Positions 4,518-58,774 of a DNA stretch of 64,000 bases are shown here, piece after piece. Source of the stretch: Buchnera aphidicola (Aphis fabae) (GTDB lineage Bacteria; Pseudomonadota; Gammaproteobacteria; Enterobacterales; Enterobacteriaceae); NCBI RefSeq assembly GCF_009069125.1, contig NZ_CP042427.1, positions 434,001 through 498,000 on the forward strand. The letters run 5' to 3'. The position numbers and the translations under genes are program-made. The notes under the pieces are model-generated. The model had not been told where the DNA came from and did not search any database. It saw only the letters and a list, made by a program, of their open reading frames with translations. The first letter of the stretch is position 1, and each line of letters begins with the position of its first letter.

Positions 4518-6788
4518 ATGGTTATTTCGAGTCATATACTTGGTTTTCCAAGAATAGGTATAAATCGAGAACTTAAAAGAGCTCAAGAATCTTATTGGTC
4601 TGGTAATATTAAACAATCAGATTTATTACTTATAGGAAAAAATTTAAGAAAAGATAATTGGAAAAAACAAAAGGATACTGGAATTCAATATATATCAGTT
4701 GGAGATTTTGCTTGGTACGATCATGTTTTAAGTACTAGTATGATGTTAGGAAATATACCAGAAAGACATAATGATATTAATGCTTCTATTGATTTGGATT
4801 GTTTATTTCGCATAGCTAGAGGATCTTATCCAGATATTTCTGCATCAGAAATGACTAAGTGGTTTAATACTAATTATCATTATATAGTTCCAGAGTTTAG
4901 TAAAAATAGAACATTAAAATTTTCTTGGAATCAACTTTTAGAAGAAATAGATGAGGCTTTATTATTAGGTTATAAAGTTAAACCTATTATTTTAGGTCCT
5001 ATTACATACTTATGGTTAGGAAAAGTAAAAGAAAAATATTTCGATCGTTTAGACTTGCTTGATAGTATACTACCTATATATAAATATATTTTAAGTGAAT
5101 TATCTGCAAGAAATATTGATTTTGTTCAAATAGATGAACCTGCTTTAGTTTTAGAACTTCCAGAAAAATGGAAAAAAGCTTATTCTTATGCTTATAAATA
5201 TTTATATGGAAAAACTAAAATATTATTAACAACATATTTTGATAGTATTAATCATAATATAGAATTTATTCGTGATTTGCCTGTACATGGTATTCATATT
5301 GATTTAGTTTGTGGAAAATACAATATATTTGATTTTAATAATAAAATTCCTAAAGAATGGATGTTATCTTTAGGAGTTATTAATGGTCGAAATATTTGGA
5401 AGTCAGATCTTTTAAAATGGTTTAAAGTTCTTTCTAAAATTACTAAATTTCGTCAAAATTTATTAATTAGTTCATCTTGTTCATTATTACATTCTCCTAT
5501 TGATTTAAATATAGAAAAACATTTAGATCCAGAAATTAAAAAATGGTTTGCTTTTGCTGTACAGAAATGTAGTGAATTAACGTTATTATTAAAAGCATTA
5601 AAAGATAATAATACTACTTTTATTGAACAATGGTCTGATCCACTTTATAAACGTAGTTCCTCTAAAAAAGTTCAGAAATTTGAAGTTCAACAACGTGTTT
5701 CTAAAATTTTAAATAATAATTTTCATCGAATTAGCAATTACGCTATCCGTGCTGAAGAACAGAAAAATAAATTTAACTTACCTATTTTACCTACAACTAC
5801 TATTGGTTCTTTTCCTCAAACAATAGAAATAAGAAAGTTAAGAAGAGATTATAAAGCAAATTTAATAAATTTTGAAGAATATAAGAAAGGTATTAAACAA
5901 CATATTAAAGAAGTAGTAAAAGTACAAGAAGAATTAGATATTGATGTGCTTGTACATGGAGAAGCTGAAAGAAATGATATGGTGGAATATTTTGGTGAAT
6001 ATTTAGATGGTTTTGTATTTACAGATAATGGATGGGTTCAAAGTTATGGTTCACGTTGTGTAAAACCACCTATTATTATTGGTGATATTAGCCGTCCAAA
6101 ACCTATTACTATAGAATGGTTGAAATATGCTCAATCTTTAACAAAAAAACCAGTAAAAGGTATGTTAACAGGACCAGTTACGATTTTATTTTGGTCTTTT
6201 CCTAGAGAAGATATTTCATTGGAAATTATTTCTAAACAAATTGCACTAGCATTACAGGATGAAGTTTTAGACTTAGAAAAAGAAGGAATTGAAATTATTC
6301 AAATTGATGAGCCTGCATTACGAGAAGGTTTGCCTTTGAAAAAAAGTTTGTGGAATAATTATTTAACTTGGGCAGTGGACGCTTTTCGTTTAACTTGTTT
6401 TAATGTGAAAAATACTACACAAATTCATACACATATGTGTTATTGTGAATTTAATGATATTATGGATTCTATTGCTTTATTAGATGCTGATGTTATTACA
6501 ATTGAAACAGCGCGTTCTGACATGGAATTATTAGAGTCGTTTAAAAATTTTAAATATCCAAATGAAGTTGGTCCAGGTGTATATGATATTCATTCTTCGA
6601 ATATACCTAATATTAAAGCAATTGATATTTTATTAAAAAAAGCAATGAAGTATATACCATTAAATCGTATTTGGGTGAATCCAGATTGTGGTTTAAAAAC
6701 AAGAAATTGGAAAGAAACAGTATCTGCATTAAAAAATATGGTAGAAGCTTCGAAAAAAATAAGAAATAAAATTAAAAAAAATATCTAA
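4518..6788 (+). CDS. metE: Cobalamin-independent methionine synthase
   Basis: Transfers the methyl group of 5-methyltetrahydrofolate (polyglutamate form) to homocysteine, the last step of methionine synthesis, without B12. 756 aa, against 753 in E. coli, with both barrel domains complete. Zinc ligands are His639, Cys641, Glu663 and Cys724 (motifs [21 protein letters not shown]), the E. coli set shifted by two. A strong AAGGG ribosome site precedes the ATG. Its methyl donor is made by metF at 23 kb. Expression is probably driven by MetR from the shared intergenic region, though I could not place a convincing MetR site. Confidence 0.98.
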
Positions 6789-6830
6789 TATAATACTATA
6801 TTATTAAAAATATTTACTTAATAAAATATT

Positions 6831-6880
6831 AAATCATCTTTTAGATTATTTTATATAAATAAAAATCTAAATGATGATTT
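6831..6880. terminator. Bidirectional terminator-like inverted repeat between metE and purH
   Basis: Arms at 6831-6847 and 6864-6880 match in 16 of 17 positions (AAATCATCTTTTAGATT against its near-exact complement) around a 16-base loop. It lies 40-90 bp from the ends of two convergent genes, so it probably ends or protects both transcripts. The arms are AT-rich and there is no GC-rich stem, so the terminator call is inference; the inverted repeat is seen directly. Confidence 0.6.
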
Positions 6881-6952
6881 AAAAAATATAATAATTTTTT
6901 TGTTCATTTAAAATATTAAAGTTATATTTATATTGTTTTAATATCGTAAAAA

Positions 6953-8530
6953 TTAATGTTTAAAATGACGTTTTTGAGTAAAAATCATTGCTATATTATA
7001 TTGATTGGCACATTCTATTATTTCTTGATCACGAATTGAACCACCTGGTTGAATAATACAACTGATTCCAATAGAGGCGGCTGTTTCTATGCCATCTATA
7101 AAAGGAAAAAATGCATCAGATGCCATGGTGGCTCCTTTTGTATTAAATCCTCTATTTTTTGCCTTAAAATTTGCCAATTGAGTTGCATCTACTCTACTTG
7201 TTTGACCAGCTCCTATACTAATAGTTGTTTTTTTAAGACCATATAAAATTGCATTTGATTTAACATATTTTACTACTTTCCAACAAAATATAGCGTCTTT
7301 TAATTCTTCTTCATTAGGTAATCTTTTTGTAATAAAATTAAATTTTTTTATATTTATTTCATCATTATCATATTCTTGTAGCAGCAATCCGTTATTTATT
7401 CTTTTAAAATCTATTTTTTCATTATTTTTTTTAAATTTTCCAGTAATTAATATTCTTATGTTTTTTTTCTTTTTTAATATTTCTAAAGATGTATTGTTTA
7501 TTTCAGGAGCAATAATTACTTCAATAAACTGTGTTTGAATAATTTCTTCAGCTGTTTTTATATCTATTATACAATTAAATGCAACTATTCCTCCAAATGC
7601 AGAAATAGGATCTGCTTTATAAGCAGATATATATGCTTGTAATAGAGATTTATTTTCAGAAACCCCACAAGGGTTACCGTGTTTAACAATAACACAAGCC
7701 GGTTGAGAAAATTGTTTAACACATTCTAAGGCTATATCTGCATCAGATATATTGTTGTAAGATAATTGTTTCCCGTGTATTTGATATGACGAACTAATTG
7801 TACCAGGATCTAAAAAATTTTCTTTTATATATAAAGCAGATTTTTGGTGTTGGTTTTCTCCGTATCTTAAATTTTGTTTTTTAATAAATTTTAATTTAAC
7901 TTGATTTGGAAATAAATCATTTTTATATTTTGTGTTAAATTTATTTGCATTTATAAAATACTTTTCAATGTTTTGTTCATAACGTGAGGTGTATGAAAAA
8001 GCTTGACTTGCTAAATATAATCTTTTTTCTATACTGACATAGTTATTTTTTATTGAATTAAAAATTAATTTGAAATCAGAAAAATTTACTATAACTATAA
8101 CATCTTTGTAATTTTTAGCCGCAGATCTAACTAATGTAGGGCCTCCAATATCAATGTTTTTAATCATTTCTTCTATATTATGTTTTTTTTCAATATTTAT
8201 TTTATCAAATGGATAAAAATTAACAATAACTATATCAATTGGTAGTATATTGTGTAATTTCATAATTGTTTGGTCTTTTTTTCTTCTAGCTAAAATACCT
8301 GCTATTATTTTAGGATGCATAGTTTTCACACGACCATCCATTATTTCTGGAAAGTTGGTATATTCTGAAATTTCAACTACAGGTATATTATGATTTTTTA
8401 AATATTTTGCAGTTCCTCCTGTTGAAAATAAATTAATTTTTTTTTCTAATAAAACTTTTGATATCTCTAATAAATGTTCTTTATTAGATAAACTGACTAA
8501 AGCATTTTTTAATATATTATTTGATAACAT
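6953..8530 (-). CDS. purH: Bifunctional AICAR transformylase / IMP cyclohydrolase
   Basis: Catalyses the last two steps to IMP: formylation of AICAR, then ring closure. 525 aa, against 529 in E. coli. The N-terminal MGS-like cyclohydrolase domain (to about residue 200) carries FSTGGTAKYL and GRVKTMHPKI. The C-terminal transformylase domain has the catalytic VKHGNPCG motif and the late GATMASDAFFPF block. E. coli has purHD; no purD follows here. In Buchnera most of the de novo purine pathway is missing, so PurH probably recycles AICAR released by histidine synthesis. That role is inference from known Buchnera metabolism. Confidence 0.97.
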   Translation of the reverse strand: MLSNNILKNALVSLSNKEHLLEISKVLLEKKINLFSTGGTAKYLKNHNIPVVEISEYTNFPEIMDGRVKTMHPKIIAGILARRKKDQTIMKLHNILPIDIVIVNFYPFDKINIEKKHNIEEMIKNIDIGGPTLVRSAAKNYKDVIVIVNFSDFKLIFNSIKNNYVSIEKRLYLASQAFSYTSRYEQNIEKYFINANKFNTKYKNDLFPNQVKLKFIKKQNLRYGENQHQKSALYIKENFLDPGTISSSYQIHGKQLSYNNISDADIALECVKQFSQPACVIVKHGNPCGVSENKSLLQAYISAYKADPISAFGGIVAFNCIIDIKTAEEIIQTQFIEVIIAPEINNTSLEILKKKKNIRILITGKFKKNNEKIDFKRINNGLLLQEYDNDEINIKKFNFITKRLPNEEELKDAIFCWKVVKYVKSNAILYGLKKTTISIGAGQTSRVDATQLANFKAKNRGFNTKGATMASDAFFPFIDGIETAASIGISCIIQPGGSIRDQEIIECANQYNIAMIFTQKRHFKH

Positions 8531-8596
8531 AATTTTAGTTCTTTTGTATAAAAAAGTATTTTTAGTAAAATTTATTTAAAAATTTTTCAGATATTT

Positions 8597-8629
8597 AATT
8601 TCATAGGGGCATTTTGCCCCCTTGAAATT
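8597..8629 (-). terminator. GC-rich hairpin between hupA and purH
   Basis: Arms 8597-8610 and 8616-8629 around loop ATTTT, matching in 12 of 14 positions, with a GGGGC/GCCCC core that is striking in such AT-rich DNA. It lies 18 bp after the hupA stop and about 65 bp before the purH start, both on the minus strand. It is most likely the hupA terminator or a 3'-end stabiliser. No run of T follows directly on the minus strand, so it may be leaky and let purH be read. Confidence 0.7.
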
Positions 8630-8646
8630 TTTAATGTAATGATTTT

Positions 8647-8919
8647 TTATTTAATTGCATTTTTTAATGTTTTTCCAGATATAAAACTAGGGACCTTTGT
8701 TGCGGGAATAATAATTTCTTTTCCTGTTTGTGGGTTTCTTCCTGTTCGAGAAGCTCTTAAATTTACTTTAAATGTACCAAATCCGACTATTTGTACGGAT
8801 TCACCTTTTTTTAAAGAGTCGACAATAGTCGATAGTGTTGATTCTAAAGTAGATTTAACTTGTATTTTAGATAGATTAGATTTTTTAGAAATAATATTAA
8901 TTAATTGAGTTTTATTCAT
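8647..8919 (-). CDS. hupA: DNA-binding protein HU
   Basis: Small histone-like protein that bends and compacts DNA. 90 aa, exactly the family length. The beta-arm tip with the intercalating proline is present ([14 protein letters not shown], about residues 55-68), followed by [15 protein letters not shown]. The start has the SD AAGGGAAG. I name it hupA from the purH neighbourhood, since HU-alpha and HU-beta are hard to separate by sequence. It is probably one of very few nucleoid proteins left, so it may be homodimeric. It is followed by the GC-rich hairpin at 8597-8629. Confidence 0.95.
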
Positions 8920-21853: not shown

Positions 21854-22897
21854 TTAAATATTTTTCAATAATTTTATTTTCCCTGAAGAATTAATAAAAT
21901 CTATTTCAGGTTCTAACCATATTTTAAATTTTTTTAAAATAGATTCTTGTATTATTTTGGCTAGTTTTAAAATTTCTTTTGGTTTTGCTTCTTTCTGATT
22001 AATCAATATAAGCTTTTGTTTTTGATAAATAGCTGCGTCTCCAATTTTAATATTATTAAAATCATATTTTTCAATTAACCAAGCAGCTGAAATTTTTATA
22101 GATCCATCAATTTGGAAATAATATGGTATATTCATATATAAAGATAAAATTTTTTTTGCATTTTTTTTAGAAATAATAGGATTTTTAAAAAAACTACCTG
22201 CATTTCCTAGTTTATTAATATTAGGTAGTTTTTTTTTTCTTATTCTACATATACTATTATATATTTTATAAGGATTTATTTTTGTAATATTTATGTTTTT
22301 AAAAAATGACTTAAAAACAATAGGATTCCATTTTTTTAATATTTTTATACCAACAGCAAGTACTGCATATCCTTCTGTATACTTATGTTTAAAAATACTA
22401 TTTCGATAAGAGAATTTACATAAATCTTTTTCAATTCTTATTATTTTAGAATTTTTTAAAGAAATAATATCAACATATTGACATACATTTTTTAACTCTA
22501 AACCATATGCACCGATATTTTGAATTGCAGCAGATCCTAAACAACCAGGAATTAATGCTAAGTTTTCTAATCCAAAAAAACCCATTCTTAATGTATATTT
22601 AACTAAATCATTCCATTTTTCTCCTGAAAGAACATGTAATAACCAAAAATTTTTTTTTTCTTTAATTGTAATTCCTTTAATTCTATTAATAATAACTATT
22701 CCTTTGTAATTTTCTAAAAACAGTACATTACTACCCTCTCCTAAAATGATATAAGGAATATTAGATAAGTCACATTTTTTACAAATATCAATTAATGACT
22801 TAATGGTTCTAATAAAAATAATTTTTTTTGCTGTTACATTTATAGAAAATGTGTTTAAATCTTTTAAAGATTTTTGATAGATTTGATTTTTATGCAT
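21854..22897 (-). CDS. murB: UDP-N-acetylenolpyruvoylglucosamine reductase
   Basis: FAD-dependent enzyme that reduces enolpyruvyl-UDP-GlcNAc to UDP-MurNAc in peptidoglycan synthesis. 347 aa, against 342. FAD-binding segment ILGEGSNVLFLENY at about residue 50-64, SYRNSIFK with the substrate Arg, the catalytic serine in GNAGSFFKNP (about 232), and the C-terminal EPEID glutamate are present. It holds an A10 tract (22650-22659 on the minus strand) read in frame, and so is prone to slippage. In E. coli murB likewise lies beside the tRNA-secE region. Confidence 0.96.
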   Translation of the reverse strand: MHKNQIYQKSLKDLNTFSINVTAKKIIFIRTIKSLIDICKKCDLSNIPYIILGEGSNVLFLENYKGIVIINRIKGITIKEKKNFWLLHVLSGEKWNDLVKYTLRMGFFGLENLALIPGCLGSAAIQNIGAYGLELKNVCQYVDIISLKNSKIIRIEKDLCKFSYRNSIFKHKYTEGYAVLAVGIKILKKWNPIVFKSFFKNINITKINPYKIYNSICRIRKKKLPNINKLGNAGSFFKNPIISKKNAKKILSLYMNIPYYFQIDGSIKISAAWLIEKYDFNNIKIGDAAIYQKQKLILINQKEAKPKEILKLAKIIQESILKKFKIWLEPEIDFINSSGKIKLLKNI

Positions 22898-23004
22898 ATA
22901 AATTTTTAATATTGTTTAAAGATATACTATTTTAAGTATAAAAATCGTATGTTTACTTATAATATTATAGATGAAATTAAAATATTTTAGTGGAGTTTTT
23001 ATAA

Positions 23005-52573: not shown

Positions 52574-53234
52574 TCTAAATTTAAAAAAAGTATGGGAAAA
52601 ATGGTCGCCAGAAGAAATTTTTTTAAATAATTCAAAAAAAAATTATGATTTTTTTTCTGATACAAGGTTATTAAAAGAAACAGATTTTTCTGCTGTAAAA
52701 CAAAATAAATTAACTAATGAATTTAAACAATCAGATCAAATTAAAAGAAAAGTTTTTAAGAATGAAGAATCATATTATTTAAATATAAAAAAAAATCTTG
52801 AAGAGAAAGAAAAAGAATATATTTCATTAAATGAAAAATTAAAAAATTTATGTGTAAATTTTGAATCTACAATTTCTATATTTGAAAAAATGTTATTTTC
52901 ACGTTTATTAAAAACAATTTTAATAGTTTCTTCTTATATTGTTGGAGAAAAATTTTTAATTAATGAATCAATTTTATTAAAAAAAATAAATAAAATCATC
53001 AAAAATGATGATTTTTTTTTAAAAAAACCACAATTAATTATTCATCCTAATAATAAAAAAATATTAGAAAAAGTTTTAAAACAATCTAAAAACAATAAAT
53101 GGGAATTAGTTTGTAATAAAAGTATTGATATTAATAGTTTTAAAATTCACTCTGAACAGAGTGATATAGATGCTACTATTTATGCTAGATGGAAAGAAGT
53201 ATATCGTATCATTCTTGGAGAAGAGGAGCATTAA
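52566..53234 (+). CDS. fliH: Flagellar export regulator FliH
   Basis: Binds the export ATPase FliI and ties it to the C-ring. 222 aa, against about 228. Weakly conserved overall: N-terminal KKVWEKWSPEEIF is the family's Trp-containing docking segment, a coiled coil lies at about residues 70-100, and the C-terminal domain ends SEQSDIDATIYARWKEVYRIILG. Identified from the N-terminal Trp motif, the C-terminal block and its place between fliG and fliI. Its stop shares a base with the fliI start (TAATG). Confidence 0.92.
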   Translation: MSNLNLKKVWEKWSPEEIFLNNSKKNYDFFSDTRLLKETDFSAVKQNKLTNEFKQSDQIKRKVFKNEESYYLNIKKNLEEKEKEYISLNEKLKNLCVNFESTISIFEKMLFSRLLKTILIVSSYIVGEKFLINESILLKKINKIIKNDDFFLKKPQLIIHPNNKKILEKVLKQSKNNKWELVCNKSIDINSFKIHSEQSDIDATIYARWKEVYRIILGEEEH

Positions 53235-54592
53235 TGAAATTAAAATGTTCTAAATTATTTGATAAAATTACTTTTTTTGAAAATAAGATAAACAATCTTT
53301 CTGATATTATTATATATGGTCATGTAATTAGTATAAATGGTTTCGTATTAGAAGTAATAGGTTTAAAAGCTCCTATTGGAGCTGAGTGTATTATTGAAAG
53401 AATAATAGATGGTAAAGTATTAAATATTTCAGCTGAAGTAATAAAATTTAATAAAGAAAAAACGTTATTATTTTCTTTTCAAGAAACTTATGGTATTTTA
53501 CCTGGTGCCAAAGTTTTTTTAAAAACGCTTAAAAACTCAGATGTATTTATTAAAAAAGTTCCATTAGGAATGAGTTTGTTAGGTAGAGTATTAAATGCCA
53601 AAGGACGCGCATTAGATGGGCTGCCTGAATTAGATTCAAAGTCTTTTACTATGATTAAAACAAGGCATATTAACCCATTAAATAGAAAACCAATTACTGA
53701 AATATTAGATACAGGAATATGTGCTATAAACGGATTAATAACTATTGGAAGAGGACAAAGAATAGGAATTTTTTCAAGCTCAGGAATCGGAAAAAGTATT
53801 CTTCTTGGTATGATGGCGAAATATACAAAAGCAGATATAGTAGTGATAGGATTGATTGGAGAAAGAGGAAGGGAAGTAAAGTATTTTATCGAAAATATAT
53901 TAGGATCAGATGGATTATCAAAGTCTGTAGTGGTTGCTTCCCCAGCAGATGTTTCTCCTTTATTACAAATTGAAGCTGCATCATATGCTACAAGCATAGC
54001 TGAATATTTTCGAGATAAAGATAAAAATGTCTTATTAATTATGGACTCTTTAACTCGTTATGCAATGGCTCAAAGAGAAGTTTCATTATCTTTAGGTGAA
54101 TTACCAGTATCTAGAGGATATCCATCTTCTATTTTTTCAAAGATTCCTATTTTAGTAGAACGTTCAGGAAATATAGATAATAAAGGATCAATTACTTCGT
54201 TTTATACAGTTTTAACTGAAAATGATGAAGATCAGGATCCTATTTCTCAGATTTGCCGTTCTATCCTTGATGGTCATATTGTATTGTCTCGTTATTACGC
54301 AGATTTAGGACACTATCCTGCTATTGATATCGAATCTTCTATCAGTCGTGTAATGCCAGATATTATTACCAAAGAACAATATTCAAAAGCTTGCTATTTT
54401 AAAAAATTAGTAGCTTCTTACCAAAGAAATAGAGATTTAATTAATATTGGAGCTTACGTTAAAGGTAATGATTTAATTTTAGATGATGCTATTAAAAAAT
54501 GGACAGATTTAGAAAAGTTTTTGCAACAAAAACCATCAGAAAAAAGTAATTATTCAGTTTCTTGTGAAAAATTAAGTAAAATATTTACTTAA
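53234..54592 (+). CDS. fliI: Flagellum-specific export ATPase FliI
   Basis: Hexameric ATPase that unloads substrates at the flagellar export gate. 452 aa from the ATG at 53234, against 457; an upstream in-frame extension would lie inside fliH and is rejected. Walker A reads SSSGIGKS, with Ser in the first positions where E. coli has AG, while GKS is kept. VVGLIGERGREVK, Walker B VLLIMDSLTRYAMAQRE and the C-terminal GHYPAIDIE are strong. Translationally coupled to fliH by TAATG. Confidence 0.97.
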   Translation: MKLKCSKLFDKITFFENKINNLSDIIIYGHVISINGFVLEVIGLKAPIGAECIIERIIDGKVLNISAEVIKFNKEKTLLFSFQETYGILPGAKVFLKTLKNSDVFIKKVPLGMSLLGRVLNAKGRALDGLPELDSKSFTMIKTRHINPLNRKPITEILDTGICAINGLITIGRGQRIGIFSSSGIGKSILLGMMAKYTKADIVVIGLIGERGREVKYFIENILGSDGLSKSVVVASPADVSPLLQIEAASYATSIAEYFRDKDKNVLLIMDSLTRYAMAQREVSLSLGELPVSRGYPSSIFSKIPILVERSGNIDNKGSITSFYTVLTENDEDQDPISQICRSILDGHIVLSRYYADLGHYPAIDIESSISRVMPDIITKEQYSKACYFKKLVASYQRNRDLINIGAYVKGNDLILDDAIKKWTDLEKFLQQKPSEKSNYSVSCEKLSKIFT

Positions 54593-54649
54593 GATTTTTT
54601 CATTTTTATATTAATTCATCTTATTTTAAAATTTAATAGGATATATTTT

Positions 54650-55098
54650 ATGAAATATAAAAAAATTTTATTTTCTATTTTAGAAAATATAGAAAATAAA
54701 AAAATAGAACAACAAATAATTCATATTAAAAATTTATATATTCAAAAAAAAAACATATTAAACAACTAAAATTATTGATTAATTTTCAAAATGAATATAT
54801 TAAAAAATTAAATATTCAGCTCAAATTAGGAATATCCGTTTCTTCTTGGAAAATATATAATAATTTTATTTTTATGTTATATATTGCAGTTGAAGAAAAT
54901 AATAATATTATTAAAAAATATGAAAAAATAATTAAAAAAAATTTAGATGAATGGTTGGAAAATAATATTAAATTAAAAACTTGGAATTATTTAAATCAAA
55001 AACATAAAATAGCATTTAAAAAACGTCGAATTTTAGAAGAGAATATTATTAGCGATGAATTTTCTCAATTTAAATTTCTTAAAAAAGGAAGTTATTAA
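54650..55098 (+). pseudogene. fliJ: Flagellar export protein FliJ, frameshifted at an A10 tract
   Basis: Start at ATG 54650 with AGGA upstream. The first frame gives MKYKKILFSILENIENKK and stops at 54767-54769 after 39 codons. The rest of FliJ, starting QLKLLINFQNEYIKKLN and running to the TAA at 55096-55098, is in the frame one base away. The only repeat at the switch is ten A at 54744-54753; eleven A would give one frame of 149 aa, close to E. coli's 147. FliJ activates the FliI ATPase and carries chaperones. Either a young pseudogene or a gene rescued by polymerase slippage. Its stop overlaps the fliK ATG. Confidence 0.85.
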
Positions 55099-56219
55099 TG
55101 TTAAGTCATCTCAATAATATTTTATTAAAAAAAAATATTGTATTAAATTTAAATCATAATGTTTATTATGATATGAATAATTTTAATTTTTATCAATTTA
55201 TTTTAAATGAATGTAAAAAAAATTTATTAAACAAAGAAATTAAGTTTGATAATATTTCTACAAAACAAAAGAAAAAAAATAATGAAAATATTATATCTAC
55301 TAATTTTATAGTAAATAATTTATTAAATATTTTAAATGGAAAAAATATAAAAAATAGTTTGTATATTAAAAAAAATATTGATATAAAAAAACAAAAAAAA
55401 AAATTAGATGAAAATATTAAATTAAAATCTTATACGTCTTTAAGAAATAGATCAAAAATTAATGTAGAAACAAATGAAAAAGAATATAAAATATTTAAAA
55501 GTAATGAAATATTAAAAAATTTAACACATATTAAAAATAAATATTTTTTGTTTTATAATGATAAAATTATTAATTTATCGAAAAAACCCTACAATAAAAG
55601 TACTTTTAATGAAACCAGTAATTTAAATATTATAAAAAGTATAAAAAACTCTATTAAAGATAGTAAAAATTTTATATATTTTAAAAATCGTATAAATAAT
55701 ATATCTAATATTCTTGATTCTAAAAATACACATAAAAATCAAAATTCTATTTGCGAAATAAATTCTTTAAAAAAAACAGATGTAAATAATGTTTTTAAAC
55801 TAAACAAAAAATCAACACTGTTTTTAAGTAAAAAAGAAAATATGCAATGGAAGAAAGCAATTAGTCAACAAGTTTTATTATCTATTTCTAACAAAGAAAA
55901 CAAAGCCGAAATTCGTTTACAACCAGAATCTCTAGGTTCAATATATGTAAAAATTCAAATGAAAGATGATCAAGCAAAACTAAAATTTATTTCAGATCAT
56001 ACAGAAATTAAAAATTTTTTAAATAATTGCATTCCATTTTTACGAGATTCTTTAAATAAAAATGGTATTTTTTTAAAAAAAGTTAATATTTCTAGTTTTT
56101 TTAATTCAGAAAAAAATAAAAATTTATTGATTTCAAAATATAGACCAAGAATATCTAGTTCAATTAAAACATTTTATGAATATTTAACACAAAACAAAGT
56201 TTTTGATATGTATGTTTAA
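55098..56219 (+). CDS. fliK: Flagellar hook-length control protein FliK
   Basis: In motile bacteria a molecular ruler that stops hook growth. 373 aa, about the E. coli length (375). The first two thirds are Lys/Asn-rich and not recognisable; the C-terminal Flg_hook domain (about residues 255-350) is clear: AEIRLQPESLGSIYVKIQM and the KNGIFLKKVNIS end. Contains an A11 tract at 55393-55403 read in frame. Starts on the last base of fliJ. Buchnera makes hooks without filaments, which fits keeping this gene. Confidence 0.92.
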   Translation: MLSHLNNILLKKNIVLNLNHNVYYDMNNFNFYQFILNECKKNLLNKEIKFDNISTKQKKKNNENIISTNFIVNNLLNILNGKNIKNSLYIKKNIDIKKQKKKLDENIKLKSYTSLRNRSKINVETNEKEYKIFKSNEILKNLTHIKNKYFLFYNDKIINLSKKPYNKSTFNETSNLNIIKSIKNSIKDSKNFIYFKNRINNISNILDSKNTHKNQNSICEINSLKKTDVNNVFKLNKKSTLFLSKKENMQWKKAISQQVLLSISNKENKAEIRLQPESLGSIYVKIQMKDDQAKLKFISDHTEIKNFLNNCIPFLRDSLNKNGIFLKKVNISSFFNSEKNKNLLISKYRPRISSSIKTFYEYLTQNKVFDMYV

Positions 56220-57637: not shown

Positions 57638-58774
57638 ATGAAAAATAATATTTCATCACAATTAACATTAAATAATCCCCAATCAGTACTTAATGGTATC
57701 AATTTTTTTCAAATAGCTAGTTCGTTAGGACAAATAATATTATTAATATTAGTTTTAAGTTGGATTATAAAAAAAATTTCATTAAAAAAAAATAAAAAAA
57801 ATTCTTACATAAATATTATAGAAAGAACATCAATAGGATCAAACGAATCTATTATCATGATAGAAGTAAAAAAGGTAAAATTAATATTAGGTGTTACAAA
57901 AACTAATATTACTCATCTGTATACATTAACATCTCAATTAAAAGACGAGTTGCCTAGTCAAGAAGAAAAAATTATGTTGCCAAAAAAAAATTATTATGAT
58001 TCTTTCAAAAATTTTACCAAAATATTTTTAAAAAAAATAATGTTTTATCGAACTGTTCCATTTTTATTTTTATTATTGTTTTGCCCTTTAGTTTATGCCG
58101 ATATACCTGGACCAACAATTCATAATTTAAATGATGGTACGCAAACTTGGTCGCTACCTATACAAACTTTAGTTTTTTTAACTGCACTTACTTTTCTTCC
58201 AGCTTTTCTTTTAATGATGACTAGTTTTACACGAATTATTATTGTTTTTGGATTATTAAGGAATGCTTTAGGAACTCCATATGCTCCACCGAATCAAATA
58301 TTGTTAGGCTTAGCACTTTTTTTAACTTTTTTTATTATGTCTCCCACTTTTGAAAAAGTTTATGAAGAAGCTTATCTTCCTTTTAGTAAAGAACAAATAA
58401 ATATGGATGAAGCTATTTTAAAAGGTTCAATTCCCTTAAAGAAATTTATGATTAATCAGACAAGAACTGCTGATTTAGAATTATTTTCGAAAATAGCACA
58501 TATTTCTTATTATAAAGATAAAAATGATATTCCTATGCGAATTTTATTACCTTCATTTATTACGAGTGAATTAAAAACAGCTTTTCAAATTGGTTTTACT
58601 ATTTTTATACCTTTTTTAATTATTGATTTAGTTGTAGCTAGTGTTTTAATGGCTCTTGGTATGATGATGGTTCCGCCTTCAACAATTTCTTTACCTTTTA
58701 AATTAATGTTATTTGTATTAGTAGATGGATGGCAATTATTAGTAACTTCTTTATCTCAAAGTTTTAACATGTAA
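57638..58774 (+). CDS. fliP: FliO-FliP fusion, flagellar export gate
   Basis: 378 aa in one frame. Residues 1-134 are FliO-like: a transmembrane helix at about 28-45 and [19 protein letters not shown]. Residues 135-378 are FliP: signal-like [20 protein letters not shown], then [32 protein letters not shown] and [16 protein letters not shown]. The join is precise: FLKK, then an A8 tract (58030-58037) and ATG at 58040. With one A fewer the text reads TAATG, a stop-start overlap like the others in this cluster. FliP may also be started at 58040. FliP is a core of the FliPQR export channel. Confidence 0.94.

Follow-up and report, generated by a model that had tools for sequence, protein, structure and literature searches.

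Frameshifts in poly(A) tracts of Buchnera and Blochmannia that are rescued by slippage are said to have been described by Tamas in 2008 and by Wernegreen in 2010. Passages of PMC5009743, PMC6260861, and PMC3017870 describe poly(A) frameshifts in both endosymbionts that are rescued by transcription slippage. According to the excerpted section of the review PMC5009743, Buchnera cell-wall genes with long poly(A) tracts give 12-50% corrected transcripts, a range that also includes a gene of an ant endosymbiont, and the genes involved are named in an excerpt of PMC6260861 as members of the mur family with an A10. In the excerpt of a study of Buchnera transcripts, 151 of 157 insertions fell in homopolymer runs; another passage of the study speaks against rescue by such errors, stating that no frame-restoring transcription error was detected (PMC5574713). 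A second parallel is spa13 of Shigella where, as quoted from PMC5009743, slippage after 58 codons gives 25-30% of the product an extension on which secretion depends, and the coding end of this extension overlaps the start of spa32. The spa13 tract is given as A10 in the cited part of PMC6260861, and the length differs between the quoted passages, with a 112-aa extension in one (PMC5009743) and a 112-residue Spa13 in the other (PMC5043178). Spa13 is described in the extracts as a FliJ homologue and stalk (PMC5043178, PMC7926512, PMC7762205) and Spa32 as the needle-length protein SctP (PMC7926512). FliJ itself acts in a FliI6FliJ complex with one FliJ per FliI hexamer, as stated in the passage from PMC4905995. 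In the quoted sections of PMC1899503 and PMC3246468, fliJ is reported lost in the Buchnera of Cinara cedri, which means that not every Buchnera depends on FliJ; loss of fliK in the same symbiont is reported in the former and retention of fliJ in the Buchnera of Cinara tujafilina in the latter.

The fliJ gene considered here lies in a stretch of 64,000 nucleotides from Buchnera aphidicola (Aphis fabae), hereafter the window, which spans positions 434001-498000 in a genome of 634,831 bases. A one-base frameshift at a tract of ten A (A10) divides the gene into two halves, each of them otherwise intact (Table 1). A sequence-only reading of this DNA had described an ATG with a Shine-Dalgarno site, a short first frame of 39 aa, a frameshift at the ten-A run, and a second open frame up to the native stop, and each of these elements is present in the letters. 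It had also let the second frame open at QLKLL; the frame is indeed open, but it is so already from ~54730, from where it continues across the tract to the native stop. The first and second frames meet within the A10. The post-tract part matches the Pfam FliJ family PF02050 (E 7.4e-14, 52.5 bits with a cut-off of 28.4), and a Pfam search with the 39-aa first part alone gave no match. A scan of the post-tract FliJ protein against the genome contigs found nothing.

Table 1. Features of the fliJ region and of murB in the window (positions are those of the window).
Feature	Position	Strand	Remark
fliI, upstream neighbour	53234..54592	+	presumed from gene order and recognition
AGGA, Shine-Dalgarno-like site of fliJ	54638..54641	+	read from letters
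fliJ first part, 39 aa	54650..54769	+	ATG 54650; out-of-phase stop TAA 54767-54769
A10 tract, frameshift site	54744..54753	+	identical A10+C in 5/36 genomes
A_AAA_AAC in first-part phase, possible -1 ribosomal slip site	54748..54754	+	present in 5/5 A10 genomes
fliJ post-tract part, second frame	54754..55098	+	native stop TAA 55096-55098; PF02050 match, omega 0.18
fliK (PF02120)	55098..56219	+	start overlaps fliJ stop (TAATG)
murB, whole	21857-22915	-	PF02873

Like the endosymbiont genes described as rescued by slippage, this fliJ belongs to an AT-rich insect endosymbiont, has just one frameshift, which lies in a stretch of about ten A, is otherwise intact, and is conserved between species. 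Three features that mark the slippage-rescued class are found, namely one frameshift inside an uninterrupted A tract of about nine or more, purifying selection after the tract, and occurrence in separate lineages; the fourth, transcripts of mixed length with a corrected frame, would be expected. Unlike the Buchnera and Blochmannia cases, fliJ is a flagellar export gene that the cited passages do not name; moreover, the same fliJ tract is hit in five genomes, and other fliJ tracts are hit in three more. The likeness to spa13 extends to the kind of gene, as both are FliJ/SctO-family stalk genes with an A10, and to its surroundings, as fliJ in the window overlaps at its end with the beginning of fliK, a length-control gene. 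We take Spa32/SctP to be the counterpart of FliK. In addition, spa13 needs slippage for its long product, and we propose the same for fliJ. The two genes differ in that spa13 belongs to the injectisome and fliJ to the flagellum, and in that the slip would occur at about codon 32 in fliJ rather than after codon 58. The two slip sites are probably convergent.

The genus was searched with the post-tract FliJ protein in 36 genomes, the window's own included, and the loci and 11-kb stretches were read. A fliJ match was found in all 36 genomes, with the gene in one frame in 28 and split in eight. Five of the split genomes (G000, G033, G015, G031, and G016) share one and the same A10, in the same phase and with CATATT directly after it. 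In the other three the split is nearer to the gene start, at an A11 in G021 and G024 and at an A10 in G017. All eight splits fall within unbroken stretches of 10 or more A, and in each of them one added A restores the frame; this +1 sense fits slippage, but we give it little weight because a DNA deletion bias at A tracts would also make most splits of this kind. A further lesion is present in G024, which is without the normal C-terminal end, and no additional lesion was seen in the other seven split genes. At the window's site, fliJ is in frame in G028 and G025, which have an A11, and in G013, which has an A8 followed by GAA. Thus, seven uninterrupted tracts of at least 10 A occur at this site, five of them A10 and two A11, and the A10/A11 difference is seen between species, for example between the sisters G016 and G028; a phase-variable homopolymer locus would show it within one population. 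The distance from ATG to tract is 94 nt in the five A10 genomes as well as in G013, G028, and G025, and an AGG is located within 20 nt upstream of the fliJ ATG in 9/9 Aphis-group genomes examined. The first part of the split gene in G015 holds a second, in-frame A10.

A tree constructed from eight flagellar proteins (2371 columns) places nine genomes in one clade, with the topology G025, (G013, G015), (G021, ((G033, G000), (G031, (G028, G016)))). On this tree, parsimony explains the A10 with three changes if reversal is allowed and with four separate losses if it is not; under either scheme, the frame at this tract was broken or restored on more than one occasion. Shared descent and recurrence may both fit the A10 in separate lineages, so the state may have persisted or recurred. 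Public protein records list truncated FliJ in several of these Buchnera species. In the literature, a fliJ frameshift in Buchnera was not found among the listed titles and passages of open-licence full texts, and a prior mention is therefore possible. The TAATG overlap of the fliJ stop with the fliK start, which the sequence-only reading had noted, is real in the window. It is shared by three of nine Aphis-group genomes (the window, G033, and G013), and among the five genomes with the A10 it is missing from three; fliK in the window has its own GGA as well. Because the overlap is patchy and fliK has its own GGA, translational coupling of fliJ and fliK, as proposed in that reading, is possible but not general.

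Selection on the post-tract part (114 codons) was estimated using the F3X4 codon model, in which base frequencies differ by codon position. For the five A10 genomes, omega was 0.18 and omega = 1 was rejected (2dlnL 53.6). The subset G000, G033, and G031 gave 0.169 (2dlnL 30.6), and the three genomes with intact fliJ at this site (G013, G028, and G025) gave 0.265 (2dlnL 10.8). In the same five A10 genomes, omega was 0.203 for fliH, 0.252 for fliK, 0.237 for fliM, and 0.069 for fliI. The post-tract part of fliJ is under purifying selection, much like intact fliJ, fliH, and fliK, and the relaxed downstream selection that the sequence-only reading had set against a working gene is absent. In neutral simulations with AT-biased substitution at the observed divergence, only 0.4-2.2% of the runs for a given pair left the post-tract part free of stops; the four pairs overlap in their genomes. 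In the separate pairs G000-G033 and G031-G016, 16 of 85 changes were at second positions (P 0.002). It should be noted that NG86 ratios over 15 pairs were noisy, ranging from 0.22 to 1.74 after the tract and from 0.24 to 2.33 before it, and the F3X4 codon model was preferred because we ascribe this noise to AT-saturated synonymous sites. If the A10 were recent in every species, the selection figures would partly mirror an earlier in-frame history. Such recency is less likely because five of the seven uninterrupted tracts are in the A10 state.

A scan for long A tracts took in 64 kb from each of nine genomes and, within these, 54 open frames. The scan yielded 89 A runs of at least 10, two of which are in fliJ (G028 and G025). 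Broken long tracts among those read were fliJ in six genomes and murB in G025, that is, 6/9 for fliJ, with the in-frame A10 of G015 counted among the nine, versus 1/88 elsewhere (Fisher P 6e-7, which is descriptive as the genomes are related). The two-frame flags read in detail were those of fliJ, murB in G025, and a 594-aa gene in G021, and the last was not a frameshift on reading. The other flags are short N-terminal matches that were assumed to be upstream extensions, for which reason the scan may overlook frameshifts near gene starts, and fliO/fliP of G025 was left out of the count. Across the 36 genomes, fliK matches lie in two frames in ten (regions L032-L066); in seven of these, adding one A at a tract of A10-A13 joins the frames, and those of G014 and G024 need the opposite shift sense. 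Within the Aphis-group clade, fliJ is split in 6/9 genomes and fliK in 0/9; outside it, the figures are 2/27 for fliJ and 10/27 for fliK (G007 included). The fliK of the window carries an in-frame A11 at 55393-55403.

Judging from this comparison of genomes, fliJ in the window is probably a working gene at reduced dose, mostly through insertional slippage of RNA polymerase. Most fliJ mRNAs would give the 39-aa dead-end peptide. In a minority, RNA polymerase would slip backwards on the A tract and insert one A, and the mRNAs with the added A would be translated into full-length FliJ. If FliJ is required at a low dose, the frameshift would be tolerated, would have persisted or recurred over several speciations, and would arise repeatedly; fliJ could tolerate slippage because a low dose may suffice. 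We infer both slippage as the source of the frame correction and the argument from low dose. As a whole, the interpretation of fliJ given in the sequence-only reading is partly supported; the identical site in four relatives, the separate fliJ and fliK splits elsewhere in Buchnera, and the likeness to spa13 go beyond it.

Programmed -1 ribosomal frameshifting takes place at A_AAA_AAN sites in dnaX and IS elements, and fliJ shares with these systems a slippery heptamer in phase. It is conceivable that ribosomes rather than RNA polymerase correct the frame on the A_AAA_AAC at the tract end. This heptamer has the right phase in 5/5 A10 genomes, and the splits in G017, G021, and G024 offer A_AAA_AAA, which is likewise slip-prone. 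When the 80 nt from the tract were folded, only 7/200 shuffles folded as well as the window and 0/200 as well as G016; however, the five A10 genomes show no common structure (z-scores -2.0, 0.1, -0.9, -0.9, and -3.8), and the hairpin of G031 and G016 is also present in the in-frame G028 and is missing from the other three A10 genomes. Furthermore, the 40 nt upstream of the tract contain no GG in the five A10 genomes, so a Shine-Dalgarno-like stimulator is lacking there. Unlike dnaX and the IS elements, fliJ is thus without a stimulator common to the five genomes, and we regard ribosomal correction as unlikely. The absence of GG also bears on another possibility, the one assumed in public annotation: a shortened FliJ whose translation begins within the post-tract part. 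FliJ forms of 99-120 aa in public records (P0004, P0008, and P0009) and a TTG at 54775 in the window would suit such a protein. The first 26 post-tract codons, however, hold no ATG, GTG, or TTG common to the five genomes, and G033, G015, and G016 are without any, which makes an internal start decidedly unlikely; the first part of fliJ, moreover, retains its ATG, its AGG site, and its length.

The frame could also be correct in the DNA of some cells. Buchnera is polyploid, and in-frame A11 copies might form a minority in a clonal population, hidden by an A10 consensus. The occurrence of A10 and A11 in the sister species G016 and G028 agrees with this, but none of 16 protein hits holds a full-length FliJ of the window's own type (clusters at 90% identity could hide alleles), and A10 need not be very labile, as a different gene carries two in-frame A10 tracts whose length is constant across 9/9 genomes. 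We give this explanation little probability. The chance that fliJ is instead a young pseudogene on its way to being lost appears slim. The reported loss of fliJ and fliK in the Buchnera of C. cedri, the splits in 8/36 (fliJ) and two-frame matches in 10/36 (fliK) genomes, and the additional C-terminal loss in G024 point in that direction, yet they stand against an omega of 0.18 after the tract, the confinement of all eight splits to long A runs, seven of them with no other lesion seen, and the match kept in every genome searched. Finally, some sequencing platforms are known to have trouble with homopolymers, and the sequence-only reading had allowed for a genomic A11 hidden by an assembly error. 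Because five genomes carry the same A10 state, such an error is very unlikely, to the point of being negligible. The two in-frame A10 tracts of constant length likewise argue against random miscalling of A10, and truncated FliJ forms also appear in further protein records.

These considerations leave insertional slippage by RNA polymerase as our preferred explanation for fliJ. Far more tentatively, A-tract slippage could be a recurrent, selected low-dose setting for the export-ATPase stalk FliJ/SctO, and elsewhere also for FliK, with separate origins in the flagellar export system of Buchnera and the injectisome of Shigella; we consider this generalization possible but doubtful. If it were true, the tract would be an expression setting near the need for one stalk per hexamer and not damage awaiting loss. 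Because public annotation lists truncated FliJ, an export apparatus that possibly works may be misread as decaying. The presence of A10 in several species together with a selected distal frame provides a natural test of RNA-polymerase error replacing genetic information in reduced genomes, and if the parallel with spa13 holds, it suggests that export stalks have a dosage requirement in common.

Several observations were made on neighboring and other genes. A murB match (PF02873) is present in 35/36 genomes, and in the distant genomes G025 and G012 (L102) the gene is split at the same place, one base short at or beside an A10. In G007 (L046 ~5960-8740), fliK seems to be interrupted by ~2.8 kb of unlike sequence, through an insertion or a misassembly; parts of this sequence are richer in G+C (0.40 at most), and no gene was recognised in it. 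In G029 (L049), the fliK open frame is 265 aa although the match stays in one frame, which suggests an in-frame stop or another start. Second-frame matches in fliM (five genomes) and fliN (one) were taken for spurious overlaps. In the window, fliO and fliP form a single open frame of 378 aa (57638-58774) in which both Pfam domains match, and the fliO/fliP match spans two frames in G025 and G010.
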